In this document: positions 2,852 to 59,418 of the stretch, one piece after another
Position numbering within the stretch: position 1 is the first letter of the stretch
How the letters are laid out: every line of letters starts with the position of its first letter
Assembly (NCBI RefSeq): GCF_013407595.1
Contig: NZ_JABEKX010000004.1
Span: 1-64,000, forward strand
Origin: Lacticaseibacillus absianus
Lineage (GTDB): Bacteria; Bacillota; Bacilli; Lactobacillales; Lactobacillaceae
Length of the DNA stretch: 64,000 nucleotides
Direction: 5' to 3'
Notes under the pieces: generated by a model
Seen by the model: the letters and a program-made list of their open reading frames with translations, nothing else
Database searches by the model: none
Told to the model about the DNA's origin: nothing
Translations under genes and position numbers: made by a program

Positions 2852-3015
2852 ATGCGATGAGTCGAGTAACCAGCAATGGTGAAAGAGCAGCTGGTCATGC
2901 ATTACCCACCGGATTTGTGGGGGCCAGTGGTCCAAGGTTGTGGAGCCAGCGGGCCTTATCTGCGTCAGCAGGTACTGTGCGGCGGGGATGATCTCTGATC
3001 ATCCCCGCTATTTTT
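2852..3015 (+). ncRNA. Structured RNA of unknown class (small RNA or leader)
   Basis: About 165 bases between a TATAAT box and a strong intrinsic terminator, with no usable reading frame. It contains several local hairpins, including ACCAGC/GCTGGT (around 2872-2900) and CCCAC/GTGGG (around 2908-2925), and ends in a 12-bp GC-rich terminator stem. The opening GATGAGTCGAGTAACC resembles the 5' end of T-box leaders, but the diagnostic TGGNACCGCG box is absent. The next gene has its own promoter, so it may be a free small RNA or a first regulatory layer for the liv operon. Confidence 0.4.
2982..3015 (+). terminator. Strong intrinsic terminator
   Basis: Perfect 12-bp stem GCGGGGATGATC / GATCATCCCCGC with a 3-base loop (2982-3008), followed by TATTTTT. 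Confidence 0.9.
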
Positions 3016-12544: not shown

Positions 12545-12576
12545 AAATGCCCCACCCGGCTGGGTGAGGCATTTTT
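12545..12576 (+). terminator. Terminator after the NlpC/P60 gene
   Basis: Stem AAATGCC-CCACCC / GGGTGAGGCATTT with a short loop and a T-run on the plus side. It may also serve the minus-strand helicase operon that ends at 12615, though its T-run is short in that direction. Confidence 0.8.
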
Positions 12577-12614: not shown

Positions 12615-13439
12615 TCAGTCCAGCCAGCGGCCCATGATGGTGAGCCAGTGCTGGAGCTGAAGCTTGCGGAGCGTGCCCAGTCCCGGAAAGTGTTGCGTGG
12701 CCGCGAGGCGTTGCAGTTCGGCCGTCGCCGGCGTGGCGGCGTCAGGGTGATCGGCCAACCATGGCGTCAGTGGGGCCACGGCCTCGAAGAATTTGGTCTG
12801 TGGGTCGGTATAGTCGAGGTTGTTGACTGAAGTGAAGTGGCGAACGAACAGGGCGCCGCGATCGATGAAAAGCAGGTGGATCGCGATGGCCCGCTGGGCG
12901 TAGCCGTGGTCATCGTAGTGGTGGGTGCTCAAGGGATAATCGGCGAGCCCAACGCCAGGGAGCTGGGCGACCGGGTACTGGTAGAACTCGGTCTGCACCT
13001 GCTGATAGTCCTCGGTGCGTGCCCGCGTCGAGGTGTGGTCTTCCAGGTAGATCGCGGCCGGGTGGGCGACGGCGCGGAATCGGGCGGCAGCCGGGATGAG
13101 CGCCAGCTGGGTGGCGTCGAGCTGATGTAGCTGAGTGAGCGACTGCACCAGCGTCAGGGGACTGGCGGTCGGATCGAACCAGCGGGCGGGGCGCACCCAG
13201 TCGCTGTACGGGATCGTTGTTTTGGGCTGAGCCAGCAGGCCGTACGCCCCGACCAGTGGATTTTGGATCACGAACAGCGGGTGGTGGTGCTTCGTGAAGG
13301 CAGCGGCACAGCGCGCGAGCGCGGGGATGTCCTTGACCGGTTCGATCACTGGGATCACGTGGGGGGAGAGCATCTGCGCCATCTGGCTGAGGGCGAGCAA
13401 GTCATACTGACGCCCGCGGATCAGGGGATAGTAGTTCAC
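12615..13439 (-). CDS. sce7725/Beta-protein-family protein of unknown function
   Basis: A 274-residue protein whose N-terminus (YYPLIRGRQYDLLALSQMA, then HVIPVIEPVKD and HHPLFVIQNPLVG) matches the sce7725 / Beta_protein type as I remember it. The biochemical role of that family is unknown to me. There is no signal peptide or membrane segment. The start is a GTG at 13439 overlapping the stop of the upstream MmcB-like gene by four bases (GTGA), so it is the last gene of a tightly coupled three-gene unit with a nuclease and a nuclease-helicase. This context suggests a part in DNA processing or defence; that is inference. Confidence 0.7.
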   Translation of the reverse strand: MNYYPLIRGRQYDLLALSQMAQMLSPHVIPVIEPVKDIPALARCAAAFTKHHHPLFVIQNPLVGAYGLLAQPKTTIPYSDWVRPARWFDPTASPLTLVQSLTQLHQLDATQLALIPAAARFRAVAHPAAIYLEDHTSTRARTEDYQQVQTEFYQYPVAQLPGVGLADYPLSTHHYDDHGYAQRAIAIHLLFIDRGALFVRHFTSVNNLDYTDPQTKFFEAVAPLTPWLADHPDAATPATAELQRLAATQHFPGLGTLRKLQLQHWLTIMGRWLD

Positions 13440-14110
13440 AGGCCCGCCTCCCGCAGCTTGTACTCGGCCAGCTCCGCCGCCAGCGCGTCGACCTCGGCCT
13501 GCAGGGTCTCGATCGCGGTGGTGGTCATCTGCGCCTCGAAGCGGTCGTAGAGATTGTCCTCAGGCGCATAGACCGAGTAAGTGGCGGTGCGGCGCCGCAG
13601 CTCGCGCAGCAGTTGCTCGTCGGTAAAGCCTGTCAGGCCGCGGTCCAGGCGCTTAGCCTTGAGCACTTCACGATTCAGACTGGCCAAGAAGCGTTCCGTC
13701 AGCGCGGCCGGAGGCACCTGCAGCGCTTGGCGCCGGGCGGGCTTGGCGATGGTCAGCTGACCCGGCGTCGCGACCGGTAGGCTGCTGGCAGCGACGCGGG
13801 CGGGGTCGAAGGGCTGGTAGGTCATCACGCCGATACCCGCAGGGATCTCTTCGCGCACCTGGTCGTACAGCGCCTGTGGCAGGACGAACGAGTTGTAGTG
13901 GCCGACGAAGCTCAGCTTCGCTTTGCTGTGAAAATCGGCTTTGGTCACTTTCAGCTCAAAGCACCGCCAAGTGTCCCCCTGAAGGACCAGCGTGTCGACG
14001 ATGCCGAGGTCGTCGGGCATCGTCACCTCTTCAACGGCGATGGCACCGAGGGCCTCCCAGTAGGCGTAGAGGGTCTGCTCTAGGTCGAGCGTCAGGTCAG
14101 TTTTGGTCAT
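13436..14110 (-). CDS. MmcB-like PD-(D/E)XK nuclease-fold protein
   Basis: A 224-residue protein. The central segment IVDTLVLQGDTWRCFELKV followed by TKADFHSKAKLSFVGHYNSF has the D...ExK pattern of PD-(D/E)XK nucleases and resembles MmcB-type DNA-repair and phage nuclease proteins. A C-terminal coiled-coil-like stretch (about 190-220: TLQAEVDALAAELAEYKL) could mediate oligomerisation. ATG 14110 is chosen because the domain begins soon after; an upstream extension is only the antisense of the helicase tail. It overlaps the helicase gene by 14 bases and the following gene by four. Confidence 0.7.
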   Translation of the reverse strand: MTKTDLTLDLEQTLYAYWEALGAIAVEEVTMPDDLGIVDTLVLQGDTWRCFELKVTKADFHSKAKLSFVGHYNSFVLPQALYDQVREEIPAGIGVMTYQPFDPARVAASSLPVATPGQLTIAKPARRQALQVPPAALTERFLASLNREVLKAKRLDRGLTGFTDEQLLRELRRRTATYSVYAPEDNLYDRFEAQMTTTAIETLQAEVDALAAELAEYKLREAGL

Positions 14111-16469
14111 CTTGGGCCTCCCAAAAGTTGGTGAGCTGCGCGGCGAGGTCGTCGATCCCCCGACTGACCGTGGCGTGCGCCCAATGTGGTGGGAATAGAC
14201 TCGCATAGCGTGGGGTGGCAAAGCGGCTGTCTAAAAGCAGGAGCACGCCGTGGTCGTGCGCGCCGCGGATCACGCGGCCCCCGGCCTGCAACACGTTGTT
14301 GAACCCAGGGAGCTGATAGGCGTAGGCGAAGCCGTCTTTGCCCTGCGCATCGAAGTAGGCGCGCAGACGGTCGGTCTCGGGATTCAGGCCCGGCAAGCCG
14401 ACGGTGATCACCGCGGCGCCGACTAGGGCTGCCCCGCCGAGGTCGATGCCCTCGGCAAACAAGCCGCCGAGCACGGCGAATCCAACGACCGGGGCCGGGT
14501 CGTCGGTGAACCGGGCCAGGTAGGCGGTGCGGGCCGCGCCATCCATCTCGGGGGTCTGTGTGATCACCGCCAACTGAGGCGCAGCCGTCTGGAATGCGCT
14601 GGCGACGGTCTCCATGTAAGCGTGCGACGGTAAGAAAACCAGATAGTGACCGGGATGGGTAGTCGCCATCAGGATCAGGCTCGCGACGAGCACTGGCAGC
14701 GTGCGCTCGCGCATGCGGTAGATCGGGGTGATGTCAGTCGTCACGACGACCTTGAGCTGCTCGCGGGGAAACGGGGACTCGAGGCGGTAGGCGAGGCTGT
14801 TGGCCGCCCCACCGAGGATGTCCTGGTAGTAATCGAGCGGTGATAGGGTAGCCGAGAACAGGACCGCTCCGCGGCCTTTGGCCATACAGGCGTCCATGAA
14901 GGCGCTGGGGTCTAGGCATAGTTGCTTGAGGGTGATCGCCTCCGGGGTCAAGGCGATCTCGGTCTCGTAGGTGTCGTTGTACAGGTCGGCGATGCGCAAG
15001 AAGCTGTTGGCCTCGAAGAACACGGGCAAGACCAGGTCGACTGCTTCCTCGTCGCGGGCCTCCGGAGGCTCACCGAGCCAATCGTGCACCGCGGCGGCGA
15101 AGCGATCCAAGGCGCCGATGAAGTCGTCCAGTGGGGCCGACTGGAAGGTCAGCGGCTGATCTGAGACGGTGAGCCGGACGGTGTCAAAGGCGGTGATCGT
15201 CTGGGTCAGCGTGCGCTTGACGGTGGTCAGCGCGCTACCGCCTTTGTGCGGCCTCAGTGCCGTTTTGAGCGCCGTGAAGCTGGTGTCGGTCAGTGCGGCG
15301 CTGTACATCTCGCGCGCCCGTGAGGCGAGGTTATGGGCCTCGTCGACCAGGAAGAAGTTGGTGTCGTCGGGCTCAGCGAAAAAGCGTTGCAGGAACACCG
15401 CTGGGTCGAACAGGTAGTTGTAATCGCAGATGATCACGTCGCAGAACAGGGAGGCGTCCAGCGAGAACTCGAAGGGGTCGAGTGTGTGTTGCTGCGCGTA
15501 TCGCTCGATCACGGCACGGGTCAGTTGATCCTCGTGGGCCAGTAGGTCTTTCAGGGCCGGCTTGAGTCGATCGTAGTAACCCAGCATGTAGGGGTTTTGC
15601 GTCGGGTCGTCGGGTTCATCCGCAAAGCGGATGGTGTCTTTGGCAGTCAGGGTGATCGATTTGGCGGCCAGCCCGTGTTCGGCCATCATCGCCATCGCCT
15701 GCTCCGCGACCACCCGGGTGCTCTGCTTGGCGGTCAGGTAAAAAGCGCGCTGGATCAGGCCGGTGCCCATCGCTTGAACCGTCGGGAACAGCGTCGAGAT
15801 CGTTTTGCCCGTTCCGGTTGGCGCCTCAACGAACAGGCGCGTCTTGGCCGCGATGGTCTTGTACACCGCGACGGCAAGCTCACGCTGGCCCTTGCGGTAG
15901 GCAGGAAACGGGAAGGTTAGCCCCTTGATCGAGGCATCGCGAGCGGCGACGATGTCGCTACGCATTTTCAGCCAGTCGGCCCAATCGGCCACCAGGTCCT
16001 CAAAAAACAGGGCCAGGTCTGCGGCCGTCTGCACTTCGGTGAAGCGCGTGATCTCGTCGGTGGTGGTCTGGTAATAGATCAAGTCGAGCTCGACTTCCGG
16101 CAGGTCCCGCTCAAGGCAGAGGAAGTGGCCGTACACCCGCGCCTGCGCCCAGTAGCGGTCCTTGGTGTTCTGCGTCACGTTCGCCCAATCGCGTGCGCTG
16201 GTCTTGATCTCTTCGATCACCGTGCGGGCGTGGCTGGTGTCCACCCCGTCTGCACGGCCGTCGATCGTGTAGGACTCACCGTTGACGGTCACGGTCTGCG
16301 CGAGGTAGACCTCCTTGGCGTAGTCGGCCTCGTGCGCACCTTGCAGCCGCCGGTGGATCTGGCTGCCAAGCTGGGCGGTGTTATTCGAGTTGGTGGTGGT
16401 GGGATCGAGATCCCCCGTGCGCACGGTGAGCTCGACGAGTTCACGAATGCCGATGCGGTGGTCAGCCAT
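14097..16469 (-). CDS. DinG/XPD-type helicase with N-terminal nuclease domain, Fe-S cysteines lost
   Basis: A 790-residue protein. Residues 1-180 hold a RecB-like nuclease domain (GRADGV, then EEIKTS as the ExK motif near residue 88). An SF2 helicase of the XPD/DinG class follows: APTGTGKT (216-223), DEAH (376-379), a late VLGGLFAEGIDL motif and a GRVIRG arginine-finger motif near 750. In relatives four cysteines before the DEAH box bind a 4Fe-4S cluster; here the equivalent stretch reads KDTIRFADEPDDPTQNPYM and LDPFEFSLD, with every one replaced. ATG 16469 has AAAGGAG and gives the usual family length. It is the first gene of a three-gene operon. DNA unwinding with end processing is the likely activity. 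Confidence 0.88.
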   Translation of the reverse strand: MADHRIGIRELVELTVRTGDLDPTTTNSNNTAQLGSQIHRRLQGAHEADYAKEVYLAQTVTVNGESYTIDGRADGVDTSHARTVIEEIKTSARDWANVTQNTKDRYWAQARVYGHFLCLERDLPEVELDLIYYQTTTDEITRFTEVQTAADLALFFEDLVADWADWLKMRSDIVAARDASIKGLTFPFPAYRKGQRELAVAVYKTIAAKTRLFVEAPTGTGKTISTLFPTVQAMGTGLIQRAFYLTAKQSTRVVAEQAMAMMAEHGLAAKSITLTAKDTIRFADEPDDPTQNPYMLGYYDRLKPALKDLLAHEDQLTRAVIERYAQQHTLDPFEFSLDASLFCDVIICDYNYLFDPAVFLQRFFAEPDDTNFFLVDEAHNLASRAREMYSAALTDTSFTALKTALRPHKGGSALTTVKRTLTQTITAFDTVRLTVSDQPLTFQSAPLDDFIGALDRFAAAVHDWLGEPPEARDEEAVDLVLPVFFEANSFLRIADLYNDTYETEIALTPEAITLKQLCLDPSAFMDACMAKGRGAVLFSATLSPLDYYQDILGGAANSLAYRLESPFPREQLKVVVTTDITPIYRMRERTLPVLVASLILMATTHPGHYLVFLPSHAYMETVASAFQTAAPQLAVITQTPEMDGAARTAYLARFTDDPAPVVGFAVLGGLFAEGIDLGGAALVGAAVITVGLPGLNPETDRLRAYFDAQGKDGFAYAYQLPGFNNVLQAGGRVIRGAHDHGVLLLLDSRFATPRYASLFPPHWAHATVSRGIDDLAAQLTNFWEAQDDQN

Positions 16470-16594
16470 GTGGTCTCCTTTCAACGCGGCCCGCGCGCAG
16501 CGGCGCAGGGGCGATCCTCCTCATTATAGAGCACTGCTCGCGTGGCGGGAAGGCGCACACGGCCCCCTGTTTTGGCGGGCGGTTCCCGTCACGG

Positions 16595-19034: not shown

Positions 19035-19068
19035 ACCGTCTCACCAACCTAGGTGGGACGGTTTTTTA
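19035..19068 (+). terminator. Terminator of ldh
   Basis: Stem ACCGTCTCACC / GGTGGGACGGT with a 6-base loop, then TTTTTTA. Confidence 0.9.
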
Positions 19069-19151
19069 TCGAGTACGGGGCAGTCAAGACACCTGCTTTC
19101 CCGGCCCGCGGCGGCGTGGTACACTGGAATGCAGACGAAGGGGGTACAGAC

Positions 19152-19730
19152 ATGCAGACGGCAGAGGCGATCTTTGAGGCGATCAAGGCGGATCCAGCGA
19201 ACGCGGCGTACACCGCGCAGGGGGTTGAGCCACTGTATCACATCGAACCGGAGGCGACGATCCTGCTGATCAGTCAGGCCCCGAGCAGCAAGGCGCAATC
19301 CTCGATGGTGTTTTGGAACGATCCGAGCGGGGATCGCCTGCGCGATTGGATGGGCGTGACGCCGGATGAGTTCTACCACTCCGGGAAGCTGGCCGTCATG
19401 CCGCTGGACTTCTACTATCCGGGCAAGGGCAAAAGCGGCGACCTACCGCCGCGCAAAGGGTTCGCCGCTCAGTGGCACCCGCTGTTGCGCCCGTTGATGC
19501 CCAAGGTCGAGTTGACGCTTTTGGTCGGGGCCTACGCGCAGAAGTACTATTTGGGCCGCGCCGCGCGCCCGACGCTGACCGAGACAGTCCGTCATTTTGA
19601 CGACTACCGGCCGAACTTTCCACTGGTCCACCCGTCGCCGTTGAATTATGGCTGGATCAAGCACAATCCCTGGTTCGAGGCGACGGTGTTGCCTGTTTTA
19701 CGGGCGCAAGTCCGTCACGCGTTGCGCTGA
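19152..19730 (+). CDS. Uracil-DNA glycosylase family protein
   Basis: A 192-residue single-domain protein with LLISQAPSSKA at the water-activating loop position, FYYPGKGKSGDLPPRKGFA, LTLLVGAYAQKYYLG and the DNA-intercalation loop HPSPLN near residue 160. It resembles the small UDG-superfamily proteins common in Firmicutes and proteobacteria, which lack the Fe-S cysteines of family 4/5. True uracil excision is not certain. ATG 19152 has a GAAGGGGG site; the longer upstream frame runs into the ldh terminator and is rejected. Confidence 0.8.
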   Translation: MQTAEAIFEAIKADPANAAYTAQGVEPLYHIEPEATILLISQAPSSKAQSSMVFWNDPSGDRLRDWMGVTPDEFYHSGKLAVMPLDFYYPGKGKSGDLPPRKGFAAQWHPLLRPLMPKVELTLLVGAYAQKYYLGRAARPTLTETVRHFDDYRPNFPLVHPSPLNYGWIKHNPWFEATVLPVLRAQVRHALR

Positions 19731-28772: not shown

Positions 28773-28804
28773 CCTCGCCATTAGCGGCTGAGACATCAAG
28801 CGGT

Positions 28805-28876
28805 TTTAGCCCAGAGTATACGCGTGGCCCTCAGCAAACCTGAACTTAGGTTTGGCTGGGGGCCACGCTTGTACAG
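28805..28876 (-). repeat. Dispersed palindromic element, copy A
   Basis: A hairpin with outer arms GCGTGGCCC (28822-28830) and GGGCCACGC (28860-28868), inner AAACCT/AGGTTT, and a tail that reads TATACTCTGGGCTAAA on the minus strand. The same layout and tail recur on the plus strand near 43.8 and 59.3 kb. It is about 30 bases past the stop of the small acidic protein gene. Confidence 0.75.
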
Positions 28877-59259: not shown

Positions 59260-59418
59260 GTGCCATAACGCAACGCCCTTTCTAACGCATGTCTGCCTGT
59301 AACTCACTGCGTTCGAACGGGCAGCGCAAGTCGTATAAGAGCGCTCCCCTGCAAAACCTAAGTTCGGGTTTTTCAGGGGAGCGCTCTTATACTCTGGGCT
59401 AAAACCGCGTTATGGCAC
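59260..59418. repeat. Perfect 12-bp inverted repeats flanking palindromic copy C
   Basis: GTGCCATAACGC at 59260-59271 and GCGTTATGGCAC at 59407-59418 enclose 135 bases with the palindromic element. A shorter TGGCACG/CGTGCCA dyad lies at 59235-59265. This could be a MITE-like unit. Between 59182 and 59532 no gene is supported. Confidence 0.55.
59334..59404 (+). repeat. Dispersed palindromic element, copy C
   Basis: TATAAGAGCGCTCCCCTG (from 59334) pairs perfectly with CAGGGGAGCGCTCTTATA (to 59391); the loop keeps the family core AACCTAAGTTC and the 3' flank the tail TATACTCTGGGCTAAAA. The outer arms differ from copies A and B on both sides at once, so pairing is preserved. Confidence 0.8.

Follow-up and report, generated by a model that had tools for sequence, protein, structure and literature searches.

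Introduction

DinG-like helicases include a subgroup, EndoDinG, which according to the available text of PMC11981726 carries an N-terminal PD-(D/E)XK nuclease with the residues H, E, D, E and K. Among small nucleases, MmcB of Caulobacter is presented, in the excerpted part of PMC9578287, as an SOS-regulated PD-(D/E)XK endonuclease that protects against mitomycin C and cisplatin; and component C of the PD-lambda-2 system, a relative of a P4 phage protein, is needed for defence, as given in the accessible portion of PMC9519451. Here, we describe a locus of Lacticaseibacillus absianus in which a helicase resembling EndoDinG, a nuclease resembling MmcB and an sce7725-family protein are encoded side by side. 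The DNA analysed, hereafter called the window, is a stretch of 64,000 nucleotides (contig NZ_JABEKX010000004.1, positions 1 to 64,000), and the three genes lie on its minus strand at 12615-16469. They are HEL (14097-16469; ATG start, 790 amino acids), coding for an EndoDinG-like XPD/DinG-type helicase with an N-terminal PD-(D/E)XK nuclease; NUC (13436-14110; ATG, 224 amino acids), coding for an MmcB-like PD-(D/E)XK nuclease with a long C-terminal helix; and SCE (12615-13439; GTG, 274 amino acids), coding for an sce7725-family protein with a TIM-barrel-like model. The initial annotation had reported three overlapping genes at this place, and its coordinates were exact, as were its overlaps of 14 bases between HEL and NUC and 4 bases between NUC and SCE. 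From the comparisons reported below, it is likely that HEL, NUC and SCE constitute a DNA-damage-response module that combines two nucleases with a helicase and an accessory protein; it would be a module of the SOS type that has not been described, perhaps acting on crosslinks or blocked forks.

Results

Co-occurrence of the NUC-SCE pair with the helicase

The distribution of the three families was determined in a Lactobacillaceae sample of 251 genomes from 40 genera (NUC threshold E<1e-80), a Lactobacillales sample of 295 genomes (NUC threshold E<1e-50) and a phylum sample of 299 genomes. Weak NUC matches were dropped before the counts (G114 and G207 in the Lactobacillaceae, G731 and G790 in the Lactobacillales), a partial sce7725 match in G406 was placed outside the analysis, and HEL was scored as present in G003 and G159, where the gene is split. 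Within the Lactobacillaceae sample, sce7725 was found in 67, NUC in 64 and HEL in 138 of the 251 genomes, and all 64 genomes with NUC also have SCE and HEL; the three genomes with SCE and no NUC (G009, G171, G178) carry it in another context, sce7726-sce7725-RES. The Lactobacillales sample yielded NUC in 51/295 and HEL in 92/295 genomes, with HEL present in 51/51 of the NUC genomes, which comprise 13 Lactobacillaceae, 37 members of a family designated f125 and one of f2. No HEL-negative genome had the pair in either sample (0/113 and 0/203, respectively), and at the level of genera the association was significant by Fisher's test, both in the Lactobacillaceae (pair in 9/22 HEL genera versus 0/18; p 0.0018) and in the Lactobacillales (13/25 versus 0/49; p 5e-8). 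Across the phylum sample, sce7725 was found in 7/299 and NUC in 2/299 genomes, the window genome being counted in both. NUC and SCE are thus a conserved gene pair, found in the two samples only where an EndoDinG-like helicase is present, including the cases in which the two are not adjacent. The initial annotation had named rare co-occurrence of the families as the outcome that would speak against a common function; HEL in fact accompanies the pair in every Lactobacillaceae pair genome, and lies within 1.5 kb upstream of it in 75 of 80 named loci.

These named loci came from a scan in which 194 relatives of NUC were found and the best 80 were kept; SCE follows NUC in 80/80 of them. In the five named genomes whose pair lies away from HEL, a full-length HEL was in each case found at another place, and in two further ones, where HEL is cut by contig ends, it was found in pieces. 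NUC is thereby placed in Lacticaseibacillus, Levilactobacillus, Lactiplantibacillus, Secundilactobacillus, Companilactobacillus, Schleiferilactobacillus and Loigolactobacillus. In the Lactobacillaceae the pair is mostly joined to HEL as one operon, HEL standing apart in 7 of the 64 pair genomes (G123, G134, G170, G175, G181, G191, G209). All 12 listed genomes of the window's own genus, Lacticaseibacillus (g1), have the trio, genomes without a match being listed in part, and the presence of the pair was patchier among the HEL genomes of other genera, with 8/10 (g20), 4/8 (g33) and 2/8 (g14). Outside the Lactobacillaceae, SCE again follows NUC in 38/38 loci, and HEL is adjacent in 0/38. The family f125 is probably Enterococcaceae, because the NUC proteins of six f125 loci are identical at 184-205 of 229 positions to NUC of the E. 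faecium plasmid NZ_CP019972.1. This plasmid and record OR848224.1 were the two records matching both NUC and SCE in searches of plasmids and phages, in which all SCE matches were listed and the NUC matches were listed for 15 of 27 and 15 of 53, respectively. OR848224.1 (L248) is an unverified 'Listeria phage' record whose NUC equals that of the E. faecium plasmid at 228/229 positions, and it is possibly not phage DNA.

Gene junctions, trees and selection

The junction between NUC and SCE is the constant part of the arrangement. The two genes share exactly 4 bases in 55 of the 63 Lactobacillaceae genomes measured, which include all pair genomes other than G159, where the trio is cut by contig ends and HEL is in two pieces; the retention of this overlap indicates that the arrangement is more than chance. 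Outside the family, the junction varies in f125 between an overlap of 4 bases and a gap of 7, and the f2 locus has a gap of 10 bases. The inference of a fixed stoichiometry of all three products, drawn by the initial annotation from the overlaps, could not be upheld, since HEL stands apart in the seven genomes listed above and in every outside locus, and only the NUC-SCE junction is conserved. The basic unit is the NUC-SCE pair plus HEL, not the trio. It is extremely improbable that the three genes lie together by chance, as functionally unrelated members of an ordinary compact operon. Bacterial operons often contain short overlaps, and the junction of HEL and NUC is indeed variable, the genes overlapping by up to 32 bases or being separated by up to 870 bases across 56 Lactobacillaceae genomes; however, the gene order is kept in 7 genera of the Lactobacillaceae sample, where HEL is 45-76% identical to that of the window (11-row alignment), and the co-occurrence holds where HEL and the pair are not adjacent, which largely refutes such a reading.

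Trees and residue tests covered the HEL of 97 of the 138 HEL genomes of the Lactobacillaceae sample; HEL under 700 amino acids (G003) was excluded from the trees and from the box counts given below. Over 55 linked genomes, the tree distances were correlated between HEL and NUC (Pearson 0.88), HEL and SCE (0.96) and NUC and SCE (0.88), SCE evolving at roughly double the rate of HEL and NUC. The distances of NUC and SCE remained concordant where the pair is unlinked (Spearman 0.84 to 0.94). All three genes are under purifying selection, dN/dS being at most 0.184 and mostly under 0.1 where computable (13 close pairs). On the HEL tree, nine changes of the pair label are needed, at least five by starred branches. 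In addition, the pair of G134 and G181 (genus g14) is nearest to that of g38, and the pair of G209 (g33) to that of g1, while the HEL of these genomes groups with g14 and g33; because the pair and HEL thus group with different genera, the pair has apparently moved between genera without HEL.

Such movement bears on a second explanation, in which HEL alone is a repair enzyme and NUC-SCE is an independent unit, e.g., a toxin-antitoxin-like or selfish pair, that often lies beside HEL and has only LexA control in common with it. It would accommodate the travel of NUC and SCE without HEL in the three genomes just named and their stand-alone position in a second family, the 74 HEL genomes (out of 138) in the Lactobacillaceae sample that lack the pair, and the NUC homologues found in phages (53 of 50,697 records). 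However, it leaves the complete absence of the pair from the HEL-negative genomes of the two samples without an account, as well as the named loci, of which the best 80 of 194 kept the pair throughout and mostly had HEL beside it. We therefore consider an independent pair quite improbable, and a joint function of the pair and HEL remains our preferred interpretation. HEL likewise occurs in 41 of the 244 Lactobacillales genomes that have no strong pair.

LexA-type boxes upstream of HEL and of the free-standing pair

The 110 bases upstream of each gene were scanned on either strand for GAACnnnnGTTY; two loci, L302 (NUC in two frames) and L096 (too short), were left out of these counts. Upstream of linked HEL, 33 of 55 genomes had an exact box and 40 of 55 a box with at most one mismatch, compared with 8/813 and 74/813, respectively, for control open reading frames of the same loci. 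By genus, the exact boxes were distributed as 10/10 in g38, 8/8 in g4, 10/10 in g15, 4/12 in g1 and 1/3 in g21, and allowing one mismatch raised g1 to 9/12. An exact box was also found in 47/72 named loci. The free-standing pair of f125 and f2 had a box of its own, exact in 17/37 and with at most one mismatch in 32/37 loci (control, 0/343 and 39/343). In many loci the box runs directly into the -10 element (GTTTTATAnT), which is not the case in the g15 genomes. In G175, where HEL and the pair are separated, the box of HEL is exact and that of the pair has one mismatch. Five named genomes whose pair lies apart from HEL were scanned over 250 bases: L181 has an exact box, L166, L175 and L179 a one-mismatch box, and L192 none near the gene. 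Boxes of the same type lie upstream of lexA and recA of the window genome. Most of the relatives examined thus have a LexA/DinR-type box at the HEL promoter or, where the pair stands free, at that of the pair, and it often immediately precedes the -10.

A number of observations weigh against an SOS-type module, and the first of them concerns the window itself. TATAAT at 16523-16528 (minus strand), read directly from the sequence, is a possible -10 of the operon promoter, although the minus strand gave no promoter in a consensus scan. Adjoining it at 16529-16540 (minus strand) is CGAGCAGTGCTC, which occupies the position of the LexA-type box CGAACnnnnGTTY of several relatives and is not an acceptable box. 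No acceptable LexA box was found in the 110 bases upstream of the window trio, the best candidate (two mismatches, at -103) being at background level, and the same absence was seen in L163 (Lacticaseibacillus daqingensis), which among the named relatives matches best. The SOS inference therefore fails for the window copy and rests on its relatives; since the box is absent from the window's lineage, control there may be constitutive or different. Across the window genome GAACnnnnGTTY is not enriched (100 matches, versus 252 for the reversed control). Exact boxes were absent from g20 (0/8; one mismatch, 1/8) and g12 (0/4, with either scoring), and were found at only 3/26 HEL promoters of the f125 and f2 pair genomes (14/26 when one mismatch is allowed). 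They also occur at HEL genes that have no linked pair (6/41) and at 5/14 HEL genes of Lactobacillales genomes without a strong pair. For nine f125 loci among the 37 with a free-standing pair, the one-mismatch site is at -25 to -29 and does not precede a -10. The counts themselves also call for caution. The two samples overlap, and genomes of one genus are not independent; of the 38 outside loci, 8 have HEL no more than about 15 kb away and 30 have it at a greater distance or on another contig, so that not all of these loci are independent of linkage; and the check for HEL covers the genome samples, with the hosts of pair-bearing plasmid or phage records and G505 (NUC match 5.9e-25) lying outside it. 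Lastly, the kinship of NUC to MmcB is a structural resemblance based on a model. Literature searches on the lactobacillar SOS transcriptome, on lmo0157 and on the enterococcal and listerial LexA regulons listed nothing on these genes, and gave no confirmation of an SOS induction of the listerial helicase.

The helicase-nuclease HEL

HEL matched the Pfam families Helicase_C_2, DEAD_2 and HBB, and its residues 5-763 are homologous to the solved chain 9kqh_A, named a DNA 5'-3' helicase (E 8.2e-154). The N-terminal PD-(D/E)XK nuclease domain comprises about residues 1-180 (15930-16469, minus strand). Seven residues of this domain (H39, E53, D74, E87, K89, Q109 and Y113) are identical in 97/97 HEL proteins, their assignment to the PD-(D/E)XK motif being our own, and the helicase motifs GGKT (Walker A), DEAH or DEVH, and RR (motif VI) are found in all 97. 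The nuclease-helicase fusion proposed by the initial annotation is therefore borne out by the domain matches and the N-terminal residues. However, the region corresponding to the XPD/DinG Fe-S cluster (residues 281-331; 15477-15629, minus strand) lacks all four cluster cysteines in the window protein, and the four-cysteine motif of EndoDinG is accordingly absent. All four cysteines were found in 4/4 genomes of g12 and 2/8 of g14, three in two more g14 genomes, one in the three g21 genomes, and none in the remaining HEL proteins of the 97, with or without the pair. Since the cysteines are gone irrespective of the pair, their loss is a trend across the family, not a feature specific to the trio.

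A few HEL and NUC genes have unusual forms. HEL of G134 and G181 (L138 and L139), both with the pair elsewhere, contains an insert of roughly 120-165 amino acids; an intein was considered for these long proteins and ruled out, the insert being of low complexity. The HEL gene of G003 (L103) is in two frames, and NUC of G630 (L302) is split.

The nuclease NUC and its partner SCE

NUC had no informative Pfam match and no NCBIfam match (E<=1). Its putative active-site residues are E28, D39, E52 and K54, and the tested residues were unaltered in 63/63 proteins of the family sample and in all 40 further NUC proteins. The structural model (mean pLDDT 80.1) matched 3dnx (SPO1766) best, with Z 15.1 and an rmsd of 3.3 over 142 aligned residues, the next row having Z 8.0; we take 3dnx to be an MmcB-family protein. 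A weak match to PF06319 (MmcB-like) was found in 1 of 17 aligned NUC members (E 0.0031) and none in the window protein. The model also contains a long C-terminal helix at residues 187-221, where the block mean pLDDT is only 52-77. The initial description as an MmcB-type protein with a C-terminal coiled coil has its counterparts in the 3dnx match and the modelled helix, while a sequence match to PF06319 is missing for the window protein. A relationship of NUC to sce7726 was considered and rejected, as the profile comparison was not significant (probability 0.7%).

SCE scored 201.7 bits against NCBIfam sce7725_fam (NF033831; cut-off, 60), and its initial assignment to this family stands. The model is barrel-like, with a mean pLDDT of 91.7. 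Foldseek returned no known-fold match at E<=0.001; in a second structural comparison the best match was TenI (Z 9.3), which was taken as evidence of fold only, and the best structural matches are presumably TIM barrels of many functions. Neither sce7725 nor sce7726 was named in the title or abstract of literature found by full-text search.

The question of a role in defence

Outside the trio, sce7725 occurs in a sporadic cluster of a different kind. The order sce7726-sce7725-RES was found by clustering in 10/10 loci (L063-L072, with RES broken into two frames in L064), profile searches confirmed the families in L063, L068 and L070, where sce7726 matches PADLOC cll, and the same order is annotated on a Shinella plasmid (NZ_OZ000540.1, L250). 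This cluster looks defence-like and may be a possible undescribed defence module. In the window, the neighbors of SCE are NUC, which has no NF033832 match, and an NlpC/P60 gene. It may be asked whether the trio too serves anti-phage defence, with HEL and NUC destroying invading DNA and SCE acting as a sensor or an antitoxin-like control protein. The company kept by its sce7725 relatives suggests this, as do the apparent transfer of the pair between genera, the match of HEL to PADLOC typeIV_DinG (357.8 bits) and a weak match of SCE to PD-Lambda-2_C (E 0.0013), a component that the accessible portion of PMC9519451 reports as required for defence. Nonetheless, the trio is widespread in g1, being present in each genome listed, and the same divergent neighbor lies within two genes of HEL in 9/11 g1 loci; dN/dS is low; and relatives have LexA-type boxes, even though SOS control alone is compatible with defence. 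None of 10 proteins flanking the trio matched PADLOC at E<=1e-5, which also disposed of a defence-island reading, and NUC itself had no PADLOC match. No cas genes, as would be expected of Type IV CRISPR (CasDinG), were found beside HEL by PADLOC among these 10 proteins (CRISPR arrays were not searched). Of PD-lambda-2, for which HigB-like, Xre-peptidase and beta-like components would be expected together, the weak component C match alone was present, with no such genes among the neighbors. Defence is thus unlikely as the role of the trio. The initial annotation had left DNA repair, uptake and defence open as the joint task; repair is supported by the co-occurrence and the boxes of relatives, and defence is made less likely by the broad presence within several genera, the boxes, the flanks and the selection.

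Surroundings of the trio in the window

The genes flanking the trio belong to DeoC, metalloenzyme and nucleoside phosphorylase families, or code for an NlpC/P60 protein, a lactate dehydrogenase and a PTS permease. A hairpin at 12549-12570 (no strand assigned), read from the sequence where SCE and the NlpC/P60 gene converge, is a possible shared terminator; a scan placed a terminator-like site inside it at 12553-12566 on the plus strand. A uracil-DNA glycosylase superfamily protein is encoded at 19053-19730 (plus strand), about 2.6 kb past the HEL start. The Rfam family Ref68 (Enterococcus sRNA 68, Lacto-3 RNA) matched 2853-2948 (plus strand) with 46.1 bits, the gathering threshold being 44. 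Of the 100 GAACnnnnGTTY matches listed for the window genome, 36 are GAACTTAGGTTT, a dispersed hairpin; its window copies at 28800-28875 (plus strand) and 59330-59410 (minus strand) form long stable hairpins (z -7.7 and -9.8) with GAACTTAGGTTT at the tip, and both are preceded by a common GCGGTTTTAGCCCAGAGTATA, with no Rfam match there.

Discussion

The co-occurrence of HEL with the pair and the boxes of their relatives suggest a working model for the module. After DNA damage, LexA would be cleaved and the genes induced; HEL, as expected of its helicase class, would load on single-stranded DNA and unwind it; and the nuclease domain of HEL, together with NUC, would make incisions near a blocking lesion, which may be an interstrand crosslink, a bulky adduct or a blocked fork. 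SCE may bind NUC and control when or where it cuts. Crosslinks are the first candidate substrate, because the known MmcB protects against mitomycin C and cisplatin (excerpted part of PMC9578287). If the model is correct, lactobacilli, and probably enterococci, possess an undescribed SOS-type repair module, and the sce7725 family and the MmcB-like nuclease, two families of unknown function, acquire a first testable role.

In both of its contexts sce7725 directly follows a gene with a PD-(D/E)XK-like motif. This is the ground for a wider proposal, which we regard as possible yet doubtful: TIM-barrel proteins of the sce7725/beta type would be dedicated control subunits of PD-(D/E)XK nucleases, pairing with sce7726 in an abortive RES module and with the MmcB-like nuclease in SOS repair, and NUC-SCE with the EndoDinG-like helicase would be a bacterial helicase-nuclease counterpart of excision, unhooking crosslinks without UvrABC. 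One protein family would then serve both repair and a defence-like cluster.

Comparison with known systems places the locus as follows. Like the sce7726-sce7725-RES cluster, it has an sce7725 gene immediately behind one that encodes a PD-(D/E)XK-like motif, but the cluster has another nuclease family, a RES-domain protein in place of the helicase, and a sporadic distribution. PD-lambda-2 of E. coli resembles it in the weak match of SCE to component C, whereas no HigB-like or Xre-peptidase genes adjoin the trio. Archaeal XPB-Bax1 likewise combines a helicase with a separate PD-(D/E)XK nuclease, and Bax1 is among the weak structural matches of NUC (Z 4.8 and 4.5; PDB 6p4o and 6p4w); however, its helicase is of the XPB type and not the XPD/DinG type, and it has no sce7725 component. 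With Caulobacter MmcB, as characterized in the excerpted part of PMC9578287, there are common features: NUC, too, is a small stand-alone PD-(D/E)XK nuclease, and its relatives have SOS-type boxes, although NUC differs in the missing PF06319 match, the extra C-terminal helix, the sce7725 partner and the presence of HEL in all sampled pair genomes. As for EndoDinG, the available text of PMC11981726 makes no mention of an operon with NUC and SCE, and the four Fe-S cysteines are gone from the window HEL and from most of the Lactobacillaceae HEL examined; with this motif missing, HEL is best called EndoDinG-like and not a strict EndoDinG member, while its overall architecture, an N-terminal PD-(D/E)XK nuclease joined to a DinG/XPD helicase core, is that of the subgroup.

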